A stretch of DNA of 46,092 nt from an uncultured Ruminococcus sp. (GTDB lineage Bacteria > Bacillota > Clostridia > Oscillospirales > Acutalibacteraceae): NCBI GenBank assembly GCA_905235295.1, contig CAJOLF010000004.1, forward strand, positions 1 through 46,092. Direction: 5' to 3'. A model generated the notes under the pieces. The model did not search any database and was not told where the DNA came from. It was given only the letters and a program-made list of their open reading frames with translations. Position numbers and translations under genes: made by a program. Positions 7,657 to 23,950 of the stretch are shown here, piece after piece (positions within the stretch are counted from its first letter, which is position 1; the number at the start of each line of letters is the position of its first letter).

Positions 7657-9369
<1,713 letters not shown>

Positions 9370-9371
9370 CT

Positions 9372-9400
9372 ATTATAACATATCCGACTGCTGAATTCAA
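9372..9400 (-). promoter_or_regulatory. Recombinase promoter with flanking operator repeats
   Basis: Minus strand TTGAAT, 17 nt, TATAAT; CAGTCGGATATG inverted pair at 9342-9353 and 9379-9390. Confidence 0.7.
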
Positions 9401-9417
9401 CACTTTAAAGCGATAAA

Positions 9418-9678
9418 TTATACTTCTTTTGATGTTATTCTTTCAACCGTGTCATATACGGTTGAGGTTGAGTTTTCGTTGAAGTTAGTACGGATAATGT
9501 AGGTTGTGTTATCAATCTCCTGCATGTATTTTAGCGGTTTGACATACATTCCTTTGATGTACCAAGCCTTTCGTTCCTCCGGAGTCATCTTGTCAAGTAT
9601 GTCATAGAGTTTGTCAAACGCATCGTTTAACTCTGTGTGGATATTGAGTACATTGCCGTTATCATCGGTATAAAACAT
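9418..9678 (-). CDS. Small transposon-associated protein (possibly TnpW-like)
   Basis: 86-aa ORF beside the recombinase, MTPEERKAWYIKG; family call tentative. Confidence 0.5.
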   Translation of the reverse strand: MFYTDDNGNVLNIHTELNDAFDKLYDILDKMTPEERKAWYIKGMYVKPLKYMQEIDNTTYIIRTNFNENSTSTVYDTVERITSKEV

Positions 9679-11689: not shown

Positions 11690-12035
11690 TGTGCCCCCAG
11701 TATTTTTTGTTACAAAGAGTTACTTGCATTTTTCGTCAAAATATATTTCTAAAGAAATTATATCATTATTTGCCTTCTATTTACAATATTAGACATATAC
11801 GAACTTTCAAGGTGAAAATTATGCAATGAACACTAAAAAGCGCATACAATTTTGTGAATACTTTATAAATCGCTGAAAGAATTTTAAACTTCCTTGTATT
11901 TAATAAATCCTTAATACATTATTATTTGTTGAGTAAAATCTGAAATAGTTGATTCTTATAACAAGTAAAAGTTTCTTTATAGACAACCTACATTCTATAT
12001 GTTATAATTTTCTCATAGAACAAAGGAGCAAAAAT

Positions 12036-12352
12036 ATGTTAGGTAGAATAGTTGCAGTAACAGTTGACCGTCCGATGGGCAGTTTTCACCCGAAGCACAA
12101 GGATATTTACTATCCAATAAACTACGGCTATATAGAGGGGATTATTGCACCCGACGGTGAGGAGCAGGACGCATATATCCTCGGAGTTGACAAGCCTGTT
12201 GATAAGTTTACAGGCAAGGTTATCGCTATCATTCACCCGATATTGAGGATAAATGGGTTGTCTGCCCAGAAAATATTACGTTCAACAAAGAAGAAATAGC
12301 GGAAAGAGTGAAATTTCAGGAGCAGTTTTTTGAAACGGAAATAATCATATAG
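12036..12352 (+). pseudogene. Frameshifted inorganic pyrophosphatase
   Basis: DRPMGSFHPKHKDIYYPINYGYIEG...AIIHP, then frame change to DKWVVCPENITFNKEEIAERVKFQEQFFETEIII. Confidence 0.75.
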
Positions 12353-16669: not shown

Positions 16670-16680
16670 TTTATGCAATA

Positions 16681-16712
16681 CCGTTCTGAGAAAATCAGGA
16701 CGGTATTTTTTG
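16681..16712 (+). terminator. Intrinsic terminator
   Basis: CCGTTCTGA-N5-TCAGGACGG then TATTTTTTG. Confidence 0.8.
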
Positions 16713-16885: not shown

Positions 16886-17263
16886 ATGATAAACGCAGAA
16901 TGGCTGCCCGTAATTAGTGAAGGGGTTAAATGGGTTAGAGATAAAATGGGACCATCCAAAAAGGAATTAAAACTGAGAATATCTGATTTAGAATCTCAAG
17001 TTAGTACGTTAGCTTATGGAAACAAAGAATTAATCGACAATATGCAGATAATAATAACTGCAATCTTAGAAAATCTTAAAGAAGATAATAAACTTGAGAT
17101 TCATGCTGACAATATTATTCTCATTCAAGACAATTCTGGCGAAATATGTTTTAGTAGTATCACAGAGAAAAGAACTGAAAATCATTATTCACCAATATTT
17201 GATAGTATTGATGATGAAATTACTCGCAGTCGGTTATTACATCCAAGTGATAGGAGAGATTAA
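16886..17263 (+). CDS. Small coiled-coil protein of the AAA+/HORMA-like operon
   Basis: SKKELKLRISDLESQVSTL coiled coil; first gene of tight operon. Confidence 0.65.
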   Translation: MINAEWLPVISEGVKWVRDKMGPSKKELKLRISDLESQVSTLAYGNKELIDNMQIIITAILENLKEDNKLEIHADNIILIQDNSGEICFSSITEKRTENHYSPIFDSIDDEITRSRLLHPSDRRD

Positions 17264-17267
17264 TAAA

Positions 17268-18041
17268 ATGATTCCTGAAAGATATCAAAACGAAATAGGT
17301 TTACACATTATTGGTAATATACTGAGAATAGATAATTATCCGTTAATTCTTGCCATCTTCGGAGAACCGGGAATGGGAAAAACTTTTCAATTGAGAGAGC
17401 ATTTAAAATATCTTAATATAAGGGTTTTTTCTATAAATGCAGCAGATTTAGAAAATGAATATGCAGGCGTTCCTGCTAAACTATTACGCGAACAATACAT
17501 AAATGCATCTGCAGAGATTTCAAATGGACAGCCCGCTGCAATAGTTATTGATGATATTGATACTACTGTTGGAGAATGGGAAAGAAATACAGGTACTGTT
17601 AATCATCAAGAAATAATTGCGTTTTTGATGCATTTAGCTGATAACCCTAACTTTATTGAGAATATCGGATATATAAATCGAGTGCCTACTTTTGTAACTG
17701 GTAATAACTATAACCTTATGTATGAGCCATTGAGAAGACCTGGACGTGCAAAACTATTTGAGTGGGAACCGACAGAAGATGAAAAAATAGATATAATTGT
17801 TTCCATTTTTAAAACAATAAATAGGGGGTTGGCCAAGAAGATTGTAAATAAGTTTCCTGATAAACCGATTTCCTATTTTTCTGAATTGTATGCAACATAT
17901 TGTACTAAAAGCTTACTTAAATACGCTTCGAATGCGAGTATTAATTATTTGCTTCAAGATGAAAGATATAGGGATTCTTTATATAACCAGTATATAAATG
18001 CATTAGATGATATTGATTGGTATCGAGTCATATGTAAATAA
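17268..18041 (+). CDS. AAA+ ATPase, Rubisco-activase-like
   Basis: Walker A FGEPGMGKT, Walker B AIVIDDID; AADLENEYAGVPAKLLREQY and RVPTFVTGNNYNLMYEPLRRPGRAKLFEWEPTEDEK resemble recalled Rca motifs; ATG 17268. Confidence 0.8.
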   Translation: MIPERYQNEIGLHIIGNILRIDNYPLILAIFGEPGMGKTFQLREHLKYLNIRVFSINAADLENEYAGVPAKLLREQYINASAEISNGQPAAIVIDDIDTTVGEWERNTGTVNHQEIIAFLMHLADNPNFIENIGYINRVPTFVTGNNYNLMYEPLRRPGRAKLFEWEPTEDEKIDIIVSIFKTINRGLAKKIVNKFPDKPISYFSELYATYCTKSLLKYASNASINYLLQDERYRDSLYNQYINALDDIDWYRVICK

Positions 18042-18055
18042 AAAAGGAAGCAATT

Positions 18056-18607
18056 ATGAGTAGCTACACAAAAACAAAAACTTATACTCAATCTTTTACT
18101 AAAACACGAATAAGTGTTTTGGATGATCATTTTGAGATGTTTTTGCGTTGTGCTAATATGAGCGACGCAGAAGTGGAAAGATTATTAAATGCTGTTGAAA
18201 AACATGAAATTGAAGCTGTTGGTGTTTATTTGCAAGAAGGAGAATATCGTATAGCGGAAGTTGAATTTAATGTTAATTGGGAAAAACATCAAACATTGCT
18301 TCAGCTAAATGGTGATTTATTTGATACTGACATAGGGGGCTGGAAAGATGGAGTTGCTCCAGAAGCATATATTCCTGTACAGCATCTAGTCAAAGCATCG
18401 AAAGCACTTGATTTACCTGTAAGATCATGGATTAGAGTATCTAGTGCTATAAGAAAAAATCCTACGAAGCATAAATCAGTATGCAATGAATTAGGATATT
18501 GTTTCGGCGGAGGAGTACCTCCATGGAAATCTAATCCAAATGAAAAAACAAGGAATATACAAGGCTTAGCAGAAGCTAATGTTGTAAGCCGTGAAATTAA
18601 CATCTAA
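18056..18607 (+). CDS. HORMA-like (bacHORMA_1-like) protein
   Basis: N-terminal SSYTKTKTYTQSFTKTRI strand then helices and paired strands; next to AAA+ ATPase. Confidence 0.5.
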   Translation: MSSYTKTKTYTQSFTKTRISVLDDHFEMFLRCANMSDAEVERLLNAVEKHEIEAVGVYLQEGEYRIAEVEFNVNWEKHQTLLQLNGDLFDTDIGGWKDGVAPEAYIPVQHLVKASKALDLPVRSWIRVSSAIRKNPTKHKSVCNELGYCFGGGVPPWKSNPNEKTRNIQGLAEANVVSREINI

Positions 18608-18630: not shown

Positions 18631-19188
18631 ATGTTTAGTGAGATTCTATACACAATATTAACTACTACTATTTCATCATCAATTCTTTTGTTAATAAAAT
18701 CCTTTTTTGATAAAAAGGAAAGTAAAGCAGAAGAAAAAGAAATTGAAAACAAATTAAAAACTGTTGAAGAAAGTATAGGTGTTGATGATGATATTGACAT
18801 AATGAAACTTATGTTCAGCAATTTGAAAGAATTGCGTGAATACTATGTAATTAGCAAAAGACAAGCCAACAAAACATTTTCTGCATCCATATTTGTTTGT
18901 TTTTTGGGTGTAGTAATATATTCATTGGGAATAGTATTTACTTGTCTATTAAACCAAGATATTTCTCTTATTTCAATTATTTCAGGAACCACAGTTGAGA
19001 TTATTTCTGCTCTATTCTTTTGGATGTATAGCAAATCAATGAGCCAGTTAAATATTTATCACAAAAGGCTAAGCGAAACAGAAAAATATTTAATCACAAT
19101 TCAACTGGTTGAAAGAATTTCTAAAGAATCATTAGATTCTGAATTGCATTTTATCATTGAATCTATTTTAAAGAATAGCATTAATTAG
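18631..19188 (+). CDS. 2-TM membrane protein, TRADD-N-associated membrane domain-like; candidate effector
   Basis: ELREYYVISKRQANKTFSASIFVCFLGVVIYSLGIVF...ISALFFWMYSKSMSQLNIYHKRLSETEKYL. Confidence 0.6.
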   Translation: MFSEILYTILTTTISSSILLLIKSFFDKKESKAEEKEIENKLKTVEESIGVDDDIDIMKLMFSNLKELREYYVISKRQANKTFSASIFVCFLGVVIYSLGIVFTCLLNQDISLISIISGTTVEIISALFFWMYSKSMSQLNIYHKRLSETEKYLITIQLVERISKESLDSELHFIIESILKNSIN

Positions 19189-19189
19189 C

Positions 19190-19222
19190 AAATCGCTTGC
19201 TGAAAAACGGCAAGCGATTTTA
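19190..19222 (+). terminator. Intrinsic terminator of the AAA+/HORMA-like operon
   Basis: AAATCGCTTGC-N9-GCAAGCGATTTT, 11-bp perfect stem. Confidence 0.85.
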
Positions 19223-19300: not shown

Positions 19301-22300
19301 ATGGCTGATTATAAGGATTTAGTACGGGTAAGATGTCTCAGTGGTCGTAGTGATACAAACTCTAAAGTAGATTTGCTTCAAGAAAAAGATACAGAGAACT
19401 TTTTTGTAAGGAAAACTATTTATGGTATTTCACAGCCATTATACCAAGCGATTTTTTCCAGAGAAGTAAGAGCTCTACAAGTGTTAAACTCATGTAATAA
19501 TATTGTAAAAATAATTTCATTTGAGAATATGAAAGTCACTAAAACCGAAGAAAAAGTCGGTTGTATTTTTCTGGAGTATATTTTTGGTGATACCTTAAGT
19601 AACGTAAATGTTGAAGAATTATCTTCAAAAGATAAGTTTTCTATTATTAATCAAATACTAAACGCAATTGAATTTGCCCATTCAAACGGTATTGTTCACA
19701 GGGATATTAATCCCAGTAATATCATGCTCACTGATGATAATGTAGTAAAAATTATTGATTTTGGAATTTGCAAGATCAAGGGTATGCTCAATTCAGCAAC
19801 AACTTTTCAGATGGCTACCAATCGTTATTCAGCACCTGAGGTTCACACTCACAGCGAGAATGCAACGGAACAGAGTGATTTATATTCTGTAGGTGCTATT
19901 ATTTTCTATCTTTTTACAGGACAAACTCCTCCATTGCCAGAAGAGTTTAGTAATACCATTGACAAAGTTTCAGGAATTGATATTGAGCTTAAACCAATAA
20001 TAAAAAAGCTTGTCAATTATAGTCCGACAGAAAGATATTCGGATATCTTTTCTGTTCGTTCGGATCTTAACAGACTATTAACAAGATTTTTATCAACAGA
20101 CTACTATATCAACATAGTGATGGACTTTGAAAAGTTCCGTGTGCTTAAGAACAGGCATCTTATTCCTAGTGATGCACAGATATCGGAACTCAACAGCTAT
20201 ATCAAGCAGAATTACTACGAAGTACACGCATACAAAGACGACAAAAATAATTACAAGCTTTTAGGACTAAACTACATCTTAGTATGTATTTATGATAAAA
20301 GCATTAATATGTTCAAAGTTGTAGATATTACCAAGATTGTGCCTTACGAGCGAGAGCGTTTCAAAAATTTCTATTGTGCGATTAGCGCTTTTGTAAATGC
20401 TGTTAATCCAAGATTTGTTCATCGAACAAGGAATAACAGCAATCTGGAAATAAAAAATATAATTGATGATTATTACAACGAATATACTTCAAAAAGAAAT
20501 ATTGATGCTGAATACAATAGTAAGTATGGAACATGGAGAGAACTTTTAGAACTCACTCAAAAAAGCATAAATGATAATATTGTGAGATTAAAATATGACT
20601 CATATAGTGAAAAGAATGGCATCCTCTCTTTTATACTGAGTTCAAAAGTTTTCCTGCCGGAAAAAGACTTTGATAAAGAACAAACTTTTGTATTTGAAAA
20701 GAAAATAAATCGTCAAACTAAACCAATAATGATAGGCTACTACGAAAGTGATGCATATGTAAATGATCATGTTGTGTTAAGAATTCGCAGAGAACAGTAC
20801 ATGGAAAAGCTTCCGAAAGCAGGGGCTATCTGTTTAGATTATAGGAAAGAGTTAATGAATGTTCAAAGACAATTGGATGCGATTTACAAGTTGGAAAAAG
20901 AAGATTATTACTGTGCGTTCCCCCTCAAAGAAATAATCACAGGAGTAGAAGCTCCTTCTTCAATCGAGTTAAGTAGAGAAATAAAATACTTTAATGAACA
21001 ACTTGATGTATCTCAAAGAGCAGCTGTAAGGAAAGCGCTTAATTCGAATTCTTTATGTATAATTCAAGGACCTCCGGGAACAGGAAAAACAAATGTCGTA
21101 ATAGAGATTATACGTCAAATTCTTAAAGCAAATAAAAGAAATACTGATATTCCTGAAAAGAAAGTGCTGTTGGTATCTCAATCGCATCCTGCAGTGGATA
21201 AAATGTTGGAAGATCTTAATGAACAAACAAATGGAACCCCCAGCTTAATTAGAATTGGACGAGATGAAAAACTAAATCAACAAATACTTGAGAAATATGG
21301 AATTAATCATGTAAAAGAAAGGTGGATATCTGATATCAGAAGTAAATGTCGCCAATACTCCTTACCTATTCTTGCTCAGTTGGGAATAAGTGAAAATGAG
21401 TTTGAGACATATTATAAGCAAATTGAAGAGCAGCGTATTGACGGCGTGAAAAAAGAAGAAATTAATCATTCCATTATTGAAAGTACCATTGCAAAAACAT
21501 CATCGCCTACAAAAGAAAAAATGAGAAAAATATTAGAGATTCAATCTCTTTGGAAAAACCAGATTTCTCAATGCGACGAGATGGAATTGTATTTAATAAA
21601 AAGTACAACTATCATCGCAGGCACTTGTACTGGCTTTATTTCAAATAGAATAATTCGTGATGTATATTATGATTATCTAATTATAGACGAAGCAGCAAAA
21701 GCAACTTTTCCTGAATTGGCTGTATCATTTAATAAAGCAGGGAAAATAATTCTAGTAGGTGATCACAAGCAGTTACCTCCGGTATTAGATACAGATATAA
21801 TAAGGCAAAATAAAGATAAACTCAATACCCAGAATCTTTATGAGGGCCTTTTTGAAAAGCTGTACGAAATGTTTCCTAAAGAAAGTAAGCACAGGCTAAC
21901 TATTCAATATAGGATGCACCCGACAATAGGCTCCTTGATTAGCCAGATATTCTATGAAAACGAGATTCAAAATGGAATCCCAAAAGAAAAAAGAATAATT
22001 GGTATTGAAAAATATGATAATATCGCCATTGAATGGATCAGCACATCTTCAAAGCCTGAAAATCAGCGTAAAGAAACAAGAGTAGGACGGTATCCTGAAT
22101 ACACATTTAAGAATAATTTAGAAATCAACTTGATTAAGAATAAATTGATTGAATTGGATACGTTATCTTCTGGAAAGATACAAGTTGCAGTTATTACTGC
22201 TTATAGTGCACAAAAATATGCTTTAAGCAATATGATTAAACAACATAAGTTTAATCATATTGTTGTGGAAGTTGATACTGTAGATGCTTTTCAAGGAAGT

Positions 22301-22528
22301 CAAAAGGAAATAATAATATACTCTACCGTAAGAAGCAACAAAAAAACTACTATTGGATTTTTAAAATCTGAAGCCAGACTGAATGTAGCTTTTTCCCGAG
22401 CTAAATCTTTGTTGATTATTGTGGGAGATCATATGTTTTTAAATAATCGTAAAATAGGAAACAATAGATTCCCCGAAATAATCGATTATATCAACAAAAC
22501 AGATGACTGTATCATTACGGAGGTGTAA
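19301..22528 (+). CDS. Ser/Thr protein kinase-SF1 (UPF1/DNA2-like) helicase fusion
   Basis: Kinase VHRDINPSNIML, IIDFGI; helicase GPPGTGKT, LIIDEAAKA, GDHKQLPP, QYRMHP, VDAFQGSQKE, NVAFSRAK. Confidence 0.92.
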   Translation: MADYKDLVRVRCLSGRSDTNSKVDLLQEKDTENFFVRKTIYGISQPLYQAIFSREVRALQVLNSCNNIVKIISFENMKVTKTEEKVGCIFLEYIFGDTLSNVNVEELSSKDKFSIINQILNAIEFAHSNGIVHRDINPSNIMLTDDNVVKIIDFGICKIKGMLNSATTFQMATNRYSAPEVHTHSENATEQSDLYSVGAIIFYLFTGQTPPLPEEFSNTIDKVSGIDIELKPIIKKLVNYSPTERYSDIFSVRSDLNRLLTRFLSTDYYINIVMDFEKFRVLKNRHLIPSDAQISELNSYIKQNYYEVHAYKDDKNNYKLLGLNYILVCIYDKSINMFKVVDITKIVPYERERFKNFYCAISAFVNAVNPRFVHRTRNNSNLEIKNIIDDYYNEYTSKRNIDAEYNSKYGTWRELLELTQKSINDNIVRLKYDSYSEKNGILSFILSSKVFLPEKDFDKEQTFVFEKKINRQTKPIMIGYYESDAYVNDHVVLRIRREQYMEKLPKAGAICLDYRKELMNVQRQLDAIYKLEKEDYYCAFPLKEIITGVEAPSSIELSREIKYFNEQLDVSQRAAVRKALNSNSLCIIQGPPGTGKTNVVIEIIRQILKANKRNTDIPEKKVLLVSQSHPAVDKMLEDLNEQTNGTPSLIRIGRDEKLNQQILEKYGINHVKERWISDIRSKCRQYSLPILAQLGISENEFETYYKQIEEQRIDGVKKEEINHSIIESTIAKTSSPTKEKMRKILEIQSLWKNQISQCDEMELYLIKSTTIIAGTCTGFISNRIIRDVYYDYLIIDEAAKATFPELAVSFNKAGKIILVGDHKQLPPVLDTDIIRQNKDKLNTQNLYEGLFEKLYEMFPKESKHRLTIQYRMHPTIGSLISQIFYENEIQNGIPKEKRIIGIEKYDNIAIEWISTSSKPENQRKETRVGRYPEYTFKNNLEINLIKNKLIELDTLSSGKIQVAVITAYSAQKYALSNMIKQHKFNHIVVEVDTVDAFQGSQKEIIIYSTVRSNKKTTIGFLKSEARLNVAFSRAKSLLIIVGDHMFLNNRKIGNNRFPEIIDYINKTDDCIITEV

Positions 22529-22534
22529 TTTAAG

Positions 22535-23950
22535 ATGTCAAAACTAATCAAAACCATATTATCAAAATGTCCGCCGGAAATGCCTGACTTCATTTGTATT
22601 AAATCCACAGACATTTTCTTTCCTTATATGGAAATAGGAATAGATTGTTTAGTTAGAGATATATCTGAACTCAGTTTAGTGTTTGAGGTCGTTTTAAGCC
22701 TAACTGAAATGAACGTGTGCGATATCAATGATATTTGTAGTATTTTGGGGTTGTCATTTGATATCGTAAAAGAGGTCGTTGTTGACTTGGTTTCATTAGA
22801 TTATGTTACTGCATCTGAAGCGAGTATTCGAATTACCGAAAAAGGTAAACAGGCGTTAAAGTCAAAACAATCGATTCAGATAAAAAAATATAACTTGAAT
22901 AATGTTGCTGTAGATTTGATTACTGGAAGAATATTTGATGTGGATTCTGTTTCATCTGAATCTGTATCTAAACAAAGTATTTGCCTTGAAGGAAATATCT
23001 CTATTGATTTAACCTATCTGGAAAGGAATATACAGGATATAAAGTCACTTTTCGAAGAACAGCAAAGATCACTTAATGAACAATATCGAAAATCAACAAA
23101 AGAGCTTTATCGAATGATTAGCATTCATCATCAGAAATTAAAGTATATAAAAAAGAAACTATATATATATAAATCGATTAACTCTGAGGATTTGCAATTT
23201 TATCTTGATAACGAAACTGAAGGCGCTTATCATGATGCTATGTATGAACAATTGAAAGGACAATTAGCTCCCAGCCTTGAACGCTTTTTTGAAAGCGATA
23301 GAGAATTCAAGAAGAAAGCAGGAAATTTCTCATTTGATTCCAAGAAATATAGCAAAATGGTAGAATTAAAAAGGGTGTTAAGTTCTCAAACAGAATCAAC
23401 TCTTGTTTTAGATGCCGACTTTTTTTGTGGAAAGCGGTATTCCTTTTTCGATAATGAGTACTTGTATTATTTTGAAAACGACAAAGAGATTAATTATAAA
23501 CAACTAATCATCTATTCAAATAGAATTAACAGTATATTAAACCGATCTATTTATGAGGAAATAAAGCGTATATCAGAAAACAAACCTGTTTTTATTATTT
23601 ATGATAAAAATGAGTATAATGCAGAAGGTTCTATTGATTATTTTATTCCAAAAGACAAGAGAAAGAATATTCATATCATTGAATCTTCCGATATTAGTCA
23701 ATCTATCATCTGCTTTAGCGACAGCCTTATGATTGATTTAGAAGAGTACACATTGTCAACGCTTAATGGAATTATAAGCTTTAAAATACCTACAATCAGT
23801 TTTGATTCAAAAGAAATATCTAATCTGATTTCTACATTAAAAAGAAAAACAGATTTTCAAAAATACTTATCACATGATAATAAGCGCTCAACAACAAAGC
23901 CAGATAAAGTGAACTATAGACAATACTATAAAAATGAAGGACGAAGGTGA
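22535..23950 (+). CDS. Winged-helix plus coiled-coil protein, partner of kinase-helicase; C-terminus possibly degenerate PLD-like
   Basis: 6-nt gap after helicase; wHTH-like DINDICSILGLSFDIVKEVVVDLVSLDYV; no intact HxK(x)4D. Confidence 0.6.
   Translation: MSKLIKTILSKCPPEMPDFICIKSTDIFFPYMEIGIDCLVRDISELSLVFEVVLSLTEMNVCDINDICSILGLSFDIVKEVVVDLVSLDYVTASEASIRITEKGKQALKSKQSIQIKKYNLNNVAVDLITGRIFDVDSVSSESVSKQSICLEGNISIDLTYLERNIQDIKSLFEEQQRSLNEQYRKSTKELYRMISIHHQKLKYIKKKLYIYKSINSEDLQFYLDNETEGAYHDAMYEQLKGQLAPSLERFFESDREFKKKAGNFSFDSKKYSKMVELKRVLSSQTESTLVLDADFFCGKRYSFFDNEYLYYFENDKEINYKQLIIYSNRINSILNRSIYEEIKRISENKPVFIIYDKNEYNAEGSIDYFIPKDKRKNIHIIESSDISQSIICFSDSLMIDLEEYTLSTLNGIISFKIPTISFDSKEISNLISTLKRKTDFQKYLSHDNKRSTTKPDKVNYRQYYKNEGRR

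Follow-up and report, generated by a model that had tools for sequence, protein, structure and literature searches.

We report that an AAA+ ATPase which, on the evidence of its sequence, belongs to the lineage of green-type Rubisco activase (Rca) and has intact ATPase motifs, is encoded next to a small partner protein in the window (the whole analysed stretch of 46,092 nucleotides), and that this pairing with one partner family is conserved at four divergent loci, the other three being designated L003, L096 and L106. The reading that we favour, and to which we give about an even chance, is that of a small, horizontally moving conflict-type cassette made of an Rca-lineage remodeller and a HORMA-like switch, in which the Rca-type protein takes the place occupied by TRIP13/Pch2 in HORMA-containing CBASS. 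In the window, P0002, P0001, P0003 and P0004 lie on the same strand between two terminator-like hairpins, with gaps of 4, 14 and 23 bp (an operon-like arrangement), and two further genes outside the cassette follow:

16677-16707, plus strand: terminator-like hairpin (13-pair stem, then a T run) that closes the AraC-type regulator unit lying upstream and marks the 5' boundary of the cassette
16886-17263, plus strand: P0002, small first gene, 125 aa, coiled-coil-like, without family (ORF, Pfam)
17268-18041, plus strand: P0001, Rubisco-activase-like AAA+ ATPase, 257 aa (ORF, Pfam, PDB search, trees, motifs)
18056-18607, plus strand: P0003, probable HORMA-like partner, 183 aa, with a Ser/Thr/Lys-rich N-terminus and a VNWEKH motif (rank, model and pairwise tests)
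18631-19188, plus strand: P0004, two-TM protein, CyanoTRADDas_TM (E 2.6e-14), putative membrane effector (Pfam, hydropathy)
19190-19220, plus strand: probable terminator closing the four-gene unit (perfect 11-nt inverted repeat, then TTTT)
19301-22528, plus strand: P0005, Mokosh type I MkoA (Ser/Thr kinase and SF1 helicase; MkoA 1e-177 to 1.9e-183), outside the cassette
22535-23950, plus strand: P0006, Mokosh MkoB (3.4e-32), outside the cassette

The reading frame of P0001 opens with an ATG at 17268, 4 bases past the preceding gene and behind a good ribosome-binding site (GGAGAG), and its stop codon ends at 18041. The protein carries Walker A (GEPGMGKT), Walker B (IDDID), sensor-1 (TGNN) and arginine (RRPGRAKLF) motifs and matches the Pfam AAA family (3e-15). 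Searched with phmmer against all PDB sequences, it retrieves tobacco Rca (5.4e-37), Nostoc Rca (1.6e-34) and a third Rca (2.9e-33) before the next family, a VCP-like ATPase (5.3e-13), a likeness far above chance which, together with coordinates and quoted peptides that proved exact, bears out the claim of an earlier note that an Rca-like AAA+ ORF is present at this place. With a profile of three cassette ATPases the Rca matches reach about 1e-51 to 1e-49, against 3e-14 for the next family, and the L106 ATPase, the most diverged member, matches only Rca chains in the PDB. The helical domain of Rca (RuBisCO_activase_AAA_helical, PF21228) scores 20.6 bits in P0001 and 21.9 bits in a further scan, under the cut-off of 27. 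Every complete cassette ATPase retains Walker A, sensor 1, the R-x-x-G-R motif and a Walker B in which D-D or N-D replaces the usual D-E. Two pore-loop residues are functional in Rca, A144 and Y188 in tobacco numbering (PMC5437159); P0001 retains the alanine and lacks the pore-loop-2 tyrosine, which is lost in three of the four cassette ATPases and retained in that of L096.

Our first tree contained the cassette ATPases, cyanobacterial and tobacco Rca, the TRIP13 proteins of CBASS operons (L090-L095), VCP-like domains and an FtsH-like protein of the same genome, and it brings Rca and the cassette ATPases together behind a branch supported at 100/99. With CbbX added in a second tree, they are again separated (99/99) from TRIP13, FtsH-like, VCP-like and CbbX sequences. 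The branches of the trees are long, and a single clade of the four cassette ATPases beside Rca has 83/92 in the first tree and is not recovered in the second. Grouping the cassette proteins with CbbX (red-type) gives a lower likelihood, with a p-AU of 0.068 that stays above formal rejection, the CbbX branch being very long. An AAA+ phylogeny had been proposed in the earlier note as a check, and it is on the Rca side of this 99-100% branch that P0001 falls, and not with Pch2/TRIP13 or another AAA+ clade.

One of the three further loci is on a prophage contig and the other two come from further genera of this order, and at each of them the ATPase gene lies immediately upstream of a gene of the partner family of P0003; the survey of Rca-like genes beside HORMA-like genes that had been suggested from the window alone was thus fruitful. 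On the IMG/VR prophage contig (L096), minus-strand genes for a small protein, the ATPase and the partner follow one another between the packaging genes and the structural genes of a phage, and we place this cassette at a junction of prophage sequences because the ORFs on both sides are terminase-like. Over positions 1-9000 of L103 (IMGVR_UViG_2820240463_000003), the cassette has two sets each of terminase-like and capsid-like genes on its flanks, and the second terminase apparently lacks its N-terminus, which suggests tandem or recombined prophages. L106 (genome G1327, same family) has a small gene with one TM segment, the ATPase and the partner, and adjoins a phoH-like gene, while the L003 contig (genome G128, from another family of the same order) starts within the ATPase gene, which the partner gene follows. 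A small variable gene is present just upstream of the ATPase wherever the sequence of the locus is complete, and the GC content of the cassette is below that of its surroundings at all four loci.

The cassette family is rare, with four known loci. In overlapping draws of genomes, each of which includes the window's own, the ATPase was present in 2 of 148, 1 of 391, 1 of 399, 2 of 394 and 2 of 300, and in the draws made at phylum, class, order and family level its frequency was 0.3-0.7%. Cassette members were not found in plasmid and phage records, where a Jeotgalibacillus match at 27% was seen and its neighbourhood inspected, and neither P0001 nor P0003, used as a single query against viral contigs, gave a match. 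When genome contigs were scanned with the ATPase, the best 80 of 381 relatives were all cyanobacterial, so that lower-ranked cassette members would be hidden behind the Rca of this group. A motif search recovered L096 together with L097 and L098, and one with a second motif recovered L096 together with L099; L097, L098 and L099 were rejected as chance motif matches.

For P0003, neither Pfam nor the PDB gives a match above noise, and no partner has a Pfam match; pairwise, profile and positional evidence supports a single partner family. P0003 is clearly related to the L096 partner (Z=11.7) and less strongly to the L003 partner (Z=4.1), the L106 partner is the best non-member for a three-member partner profile (E 0.017, among 2799 ORFs), and all partners share the motif [VIF][ND]W.[KEN][HY], which follows a predicted helix pair and strand. 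Several indirect observations suggest, in our opinion with good probability, that P0003 has a HORMA fold. The bacHORMA_1 / CBASS HORMA profile puts P0003 at the top of about 2793 non-member ORFs (in the set of 2799), and in the reverse direction a CBASS HORMA ranks directly after L106 as the best match of the partner profile outside its own family. The protein concerned is encoded at L090 (4300-8739) on the Nostoc plasmid pNPM2, in a CBASS operon whose TRIP13 is long and whose HORMA is diverged (~30% to Cap7). Local alignment of P0003 with E. coli Cap7, the best of six HORMAs tried, gives Z=6.2. A low-confidence AF2 model made without templates (pLDDT 36) has CBASS HORMA2 (6p8u) as its top Foldseek match, with several Rev7 and HORMA2 chains in the top 50, whereas a first model matched GNATs, which we discarded because its pLDDT was 42. 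Against this, the CBASS HORMA profile gives the partner 6.8 bits, below the bacHORMA_1 family cut-off, hhalign of partner against HORMA reaches a probability of 2% (0.7% in an earlier two-sequence comparison), and PDB profile searches with the partner found no HORMA, so that the assignment comes without a significant E-value; DrrA and isopropylmalate dehydrogenase, weak matches of the A7 profile in the PDB, were taken as chance. Genome searches with the TRIP13 lid (PF23242) and with bacHORMA_1 stayed silent in every control genome and are uninformative. The neighbour had been called HORMA-like in the earlier note, a description which the rank tests, the Cap7 alignment and one model make plausible, although the Pfam and PDB searches stayed at noise level.

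It is necessary to consider that the cassette and its Rca-type ATPase are as we describe them, but that the partner has a new small fold and is a dedicated client or adaptor instead of a HORMA protein, the first gene being a toxin as in chaperone-dependent toxin-antitoxin systems. The missing significant profile match, the other folds retrieved with the first low-confidence model and the variable small first gene, which would suit a diversified toxin, all speak for this, and the reciprocal ranking, the alignment with Cap7, the Foldseek matches to CBASS HORMA2 and Rev7, and the precedent of bacterial HORMA genes adjoining an AAA+ remodeller (TRIP13, at the CBASS loci L090-L095) speak against it; we consider it unlikely, while giving it more weight than any other alternative. 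If the partner is a HORMA protein, one could expect P0001 to be a divergent TRIP13/Pch2, since HORMA is normally partnered by TRIP13, and the resemblance to Rca could be taken at face value to make P0001 a true Rubisco activase. Both suggestions are extremely improbable: grouping of the cassette ATPases with TRIP13 is rejected (p-AU 4.2e-05) and BLAST of P0001 against Cap6 (TRIP13) gives no match, and a true Rca was rejected as PF00016 (Rubisco large subunit) has no match in the window's 97%-complete genome, the same search being positive in control genomes. The remark made from the window that Rubisco genes were not in view thus extends to the whole assembly, and the proposal that went with it, of a recruited Rca-type remodeller whose target is probably not Rubisco, gains support for lineage and pairing from the trees, the three additional loci and the absence of PF00016.

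The cassette of the window lies in an AT-rich island (GC ~31% against ~50% for the rest of the contig) that carries a TnpX-type serine recombinase, a TnpW-like ORF and an IS200 transposase, and we judge that the earlier note was fair in speaking of a mobile element. At 7657-9678 a large serine recombinase with DUF4368 is combined with the TnpW-like ORF, as in Tn4451-type elements, and the two probably serve to mobilise the island; a short ORF at 11949-12299 resembles a truncated inorganic pyrophosphatase, with no Pfam match below 1e-4. Immediately downstream of the cassette, the Mokosh type I system (MkoA and MkoB, 19301-23950) looks complete and is on the same strand, and one might imagine that the ATPase and its partner regulate or assist Mokosh and form no system of their own. 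We find this very unlikely, given that a probable terminator separates the two units and that MkoA or MkoB homologues are absent near the other three cassette loci. That the ATPase is a housekeeping protein which remodels a host enzyme other than Rubisco, and is on the island by chance, is somewhat easier to conceive, since enzyme repair is the job of green-type Rca and homologues of CbbQ/CbbO occur without Rubisco in other pathways (PMC5437159). Yet the distribution is very patchy (at the frequencies given above), the pairing with a fast-evolving partner is constant, one locus is in a prophage, the GC content is foreign and the four loci share no metabolic neighbour, and this explanation also seems improbable to us. 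The mobile island, the prophage, the Mokosh neighbour and the variable first gene together make a role of the cassette in conflict biology likely.

Coming back to the cassette as a remodeller with a HORMA-like switch, P0003 is probably the substrate of P0001. Beyond an active Rca-type ATPase linked to P0003, the steps that we infer are as follows. P0001 would form an ATP-driven ring, engage the flexible Ser/Thr/Lys-rich N-terminus of P0003 and unfold this protein in part, and its pulling would reset the HORMA-like P0003 or free a bound partner. Closed, partner-bound P0003 would license the effector (P0004 and/or P0002), so that the ATPase would set a threshold against accidental firing. There are parallels for the N-terminal contact: cyanobacterial Rca draws the N-terminus of RbcL into its pore (PMC9951593), and TRIP13 action needs the N-terminus of Mad2, direct pore engagement being debated (PMC5717197).

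As for the accessory genes, P0002 has no pairwise similarity to the small first-gene proteins of L096 and L106, hydropathy reveals a clear membrane helix only in that of L106, and P0004 has no counterpart near the other three cassettes. The first gene being not conserved in sequence and P0004 being absent elsewhere, the conserved core is the ATPase-partner pair. Effectors in defence systems often vary, and the variable accessory genes of the cassette may behave like effectors. That the effector is P0004 and/or P0002, and that the role is anti-phage, are suggestions that could go either way.

Green-type Rubisco activase has been known as the machine of a single client, with an origin placed in cyanobacteria. 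A sister group of Rca in Rubisco-free bacteria and a prophage, linked to one partner family, would give this ATPase lineage the first non-Rubisco setting known to us, and the cassette ATPases would offer a comparison for the choice of substrate by Rca as well as a clue to its origin. The data suggest a repair machine of Rca type adapted to a different job, most likely that of switching a defence-type system on and off. If the partner is indeed HORMA, the HORMA-plus-remodeller switch was assembled with two AAA+ lineages, here in a unit without a cyclic-nucleotide step. We propose more tentatively, and with a confidence slightly short of even, that remodelling of a HORMA-like switch by an Rca-lineage AAA+ protein outside photosynthesis defines an undescribed class of conflict systems, HORMA control being exercised by TRIP13 in one case and by Rca in the other. 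In the open-access literature (subscription journals being mostly outside this scope) we found no combination of Rubisco activase with HORMA or phage defence.

Finally, the cassette can be compared with four known systems. With green-type Rca (PDB 6z1d, 3t15) the ATPase shares the AAA+ lineage, the motifs TVNxQ...LM, VTGN and YxPLxRxGR...FxW, the start of the helical subdomain and a Walker B that lacks the customary Glu, but it differs in its identity (~38% at most) and long branches, in having no plant-type N-domain, in the loss of the pore-loop-2 tyrosine in most members, and in its link to a HORMA-like partner in a genome where no Rubisco large subunit was found. Mokosh type I is a direct neighbour in the same island, but a separate transcription unit that is absent at the other cassette loci. 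The conflict systems of Kaur et al. (2020/2021), which are ternary and in which a chaperone sets the threshold, rely on NTPases such as MoxR and STAND, and there is no mention of HORMA or Rca in the 2021 paper, nor of Rca in that of 2020; they have in common with the cassette, as do the CyanoTRADDas_TM proteins to whose Pfam family P0004 belongs, a logic of sensor, NTP-driven chaperone and effector. From CBASS HORMA (Cap7, bacHORMA_1) with TRIP13 (Cap6) the cassette is set apart by an ATPase that is Rca and not TRIP13, by the reversed order (ATPase before partner), by a HORMA match under family thresholds and by a unit without CD-NTase cyclase (no such domain in P0001-P0006 or in the scanned cassette proteins of two relatives); the two nevertheless share a tight pair of AAA+ remodeller and probable HORMA protein, a partner of equal size with a similar Thr-rich N-terminus, and a mobile, defence-type context.
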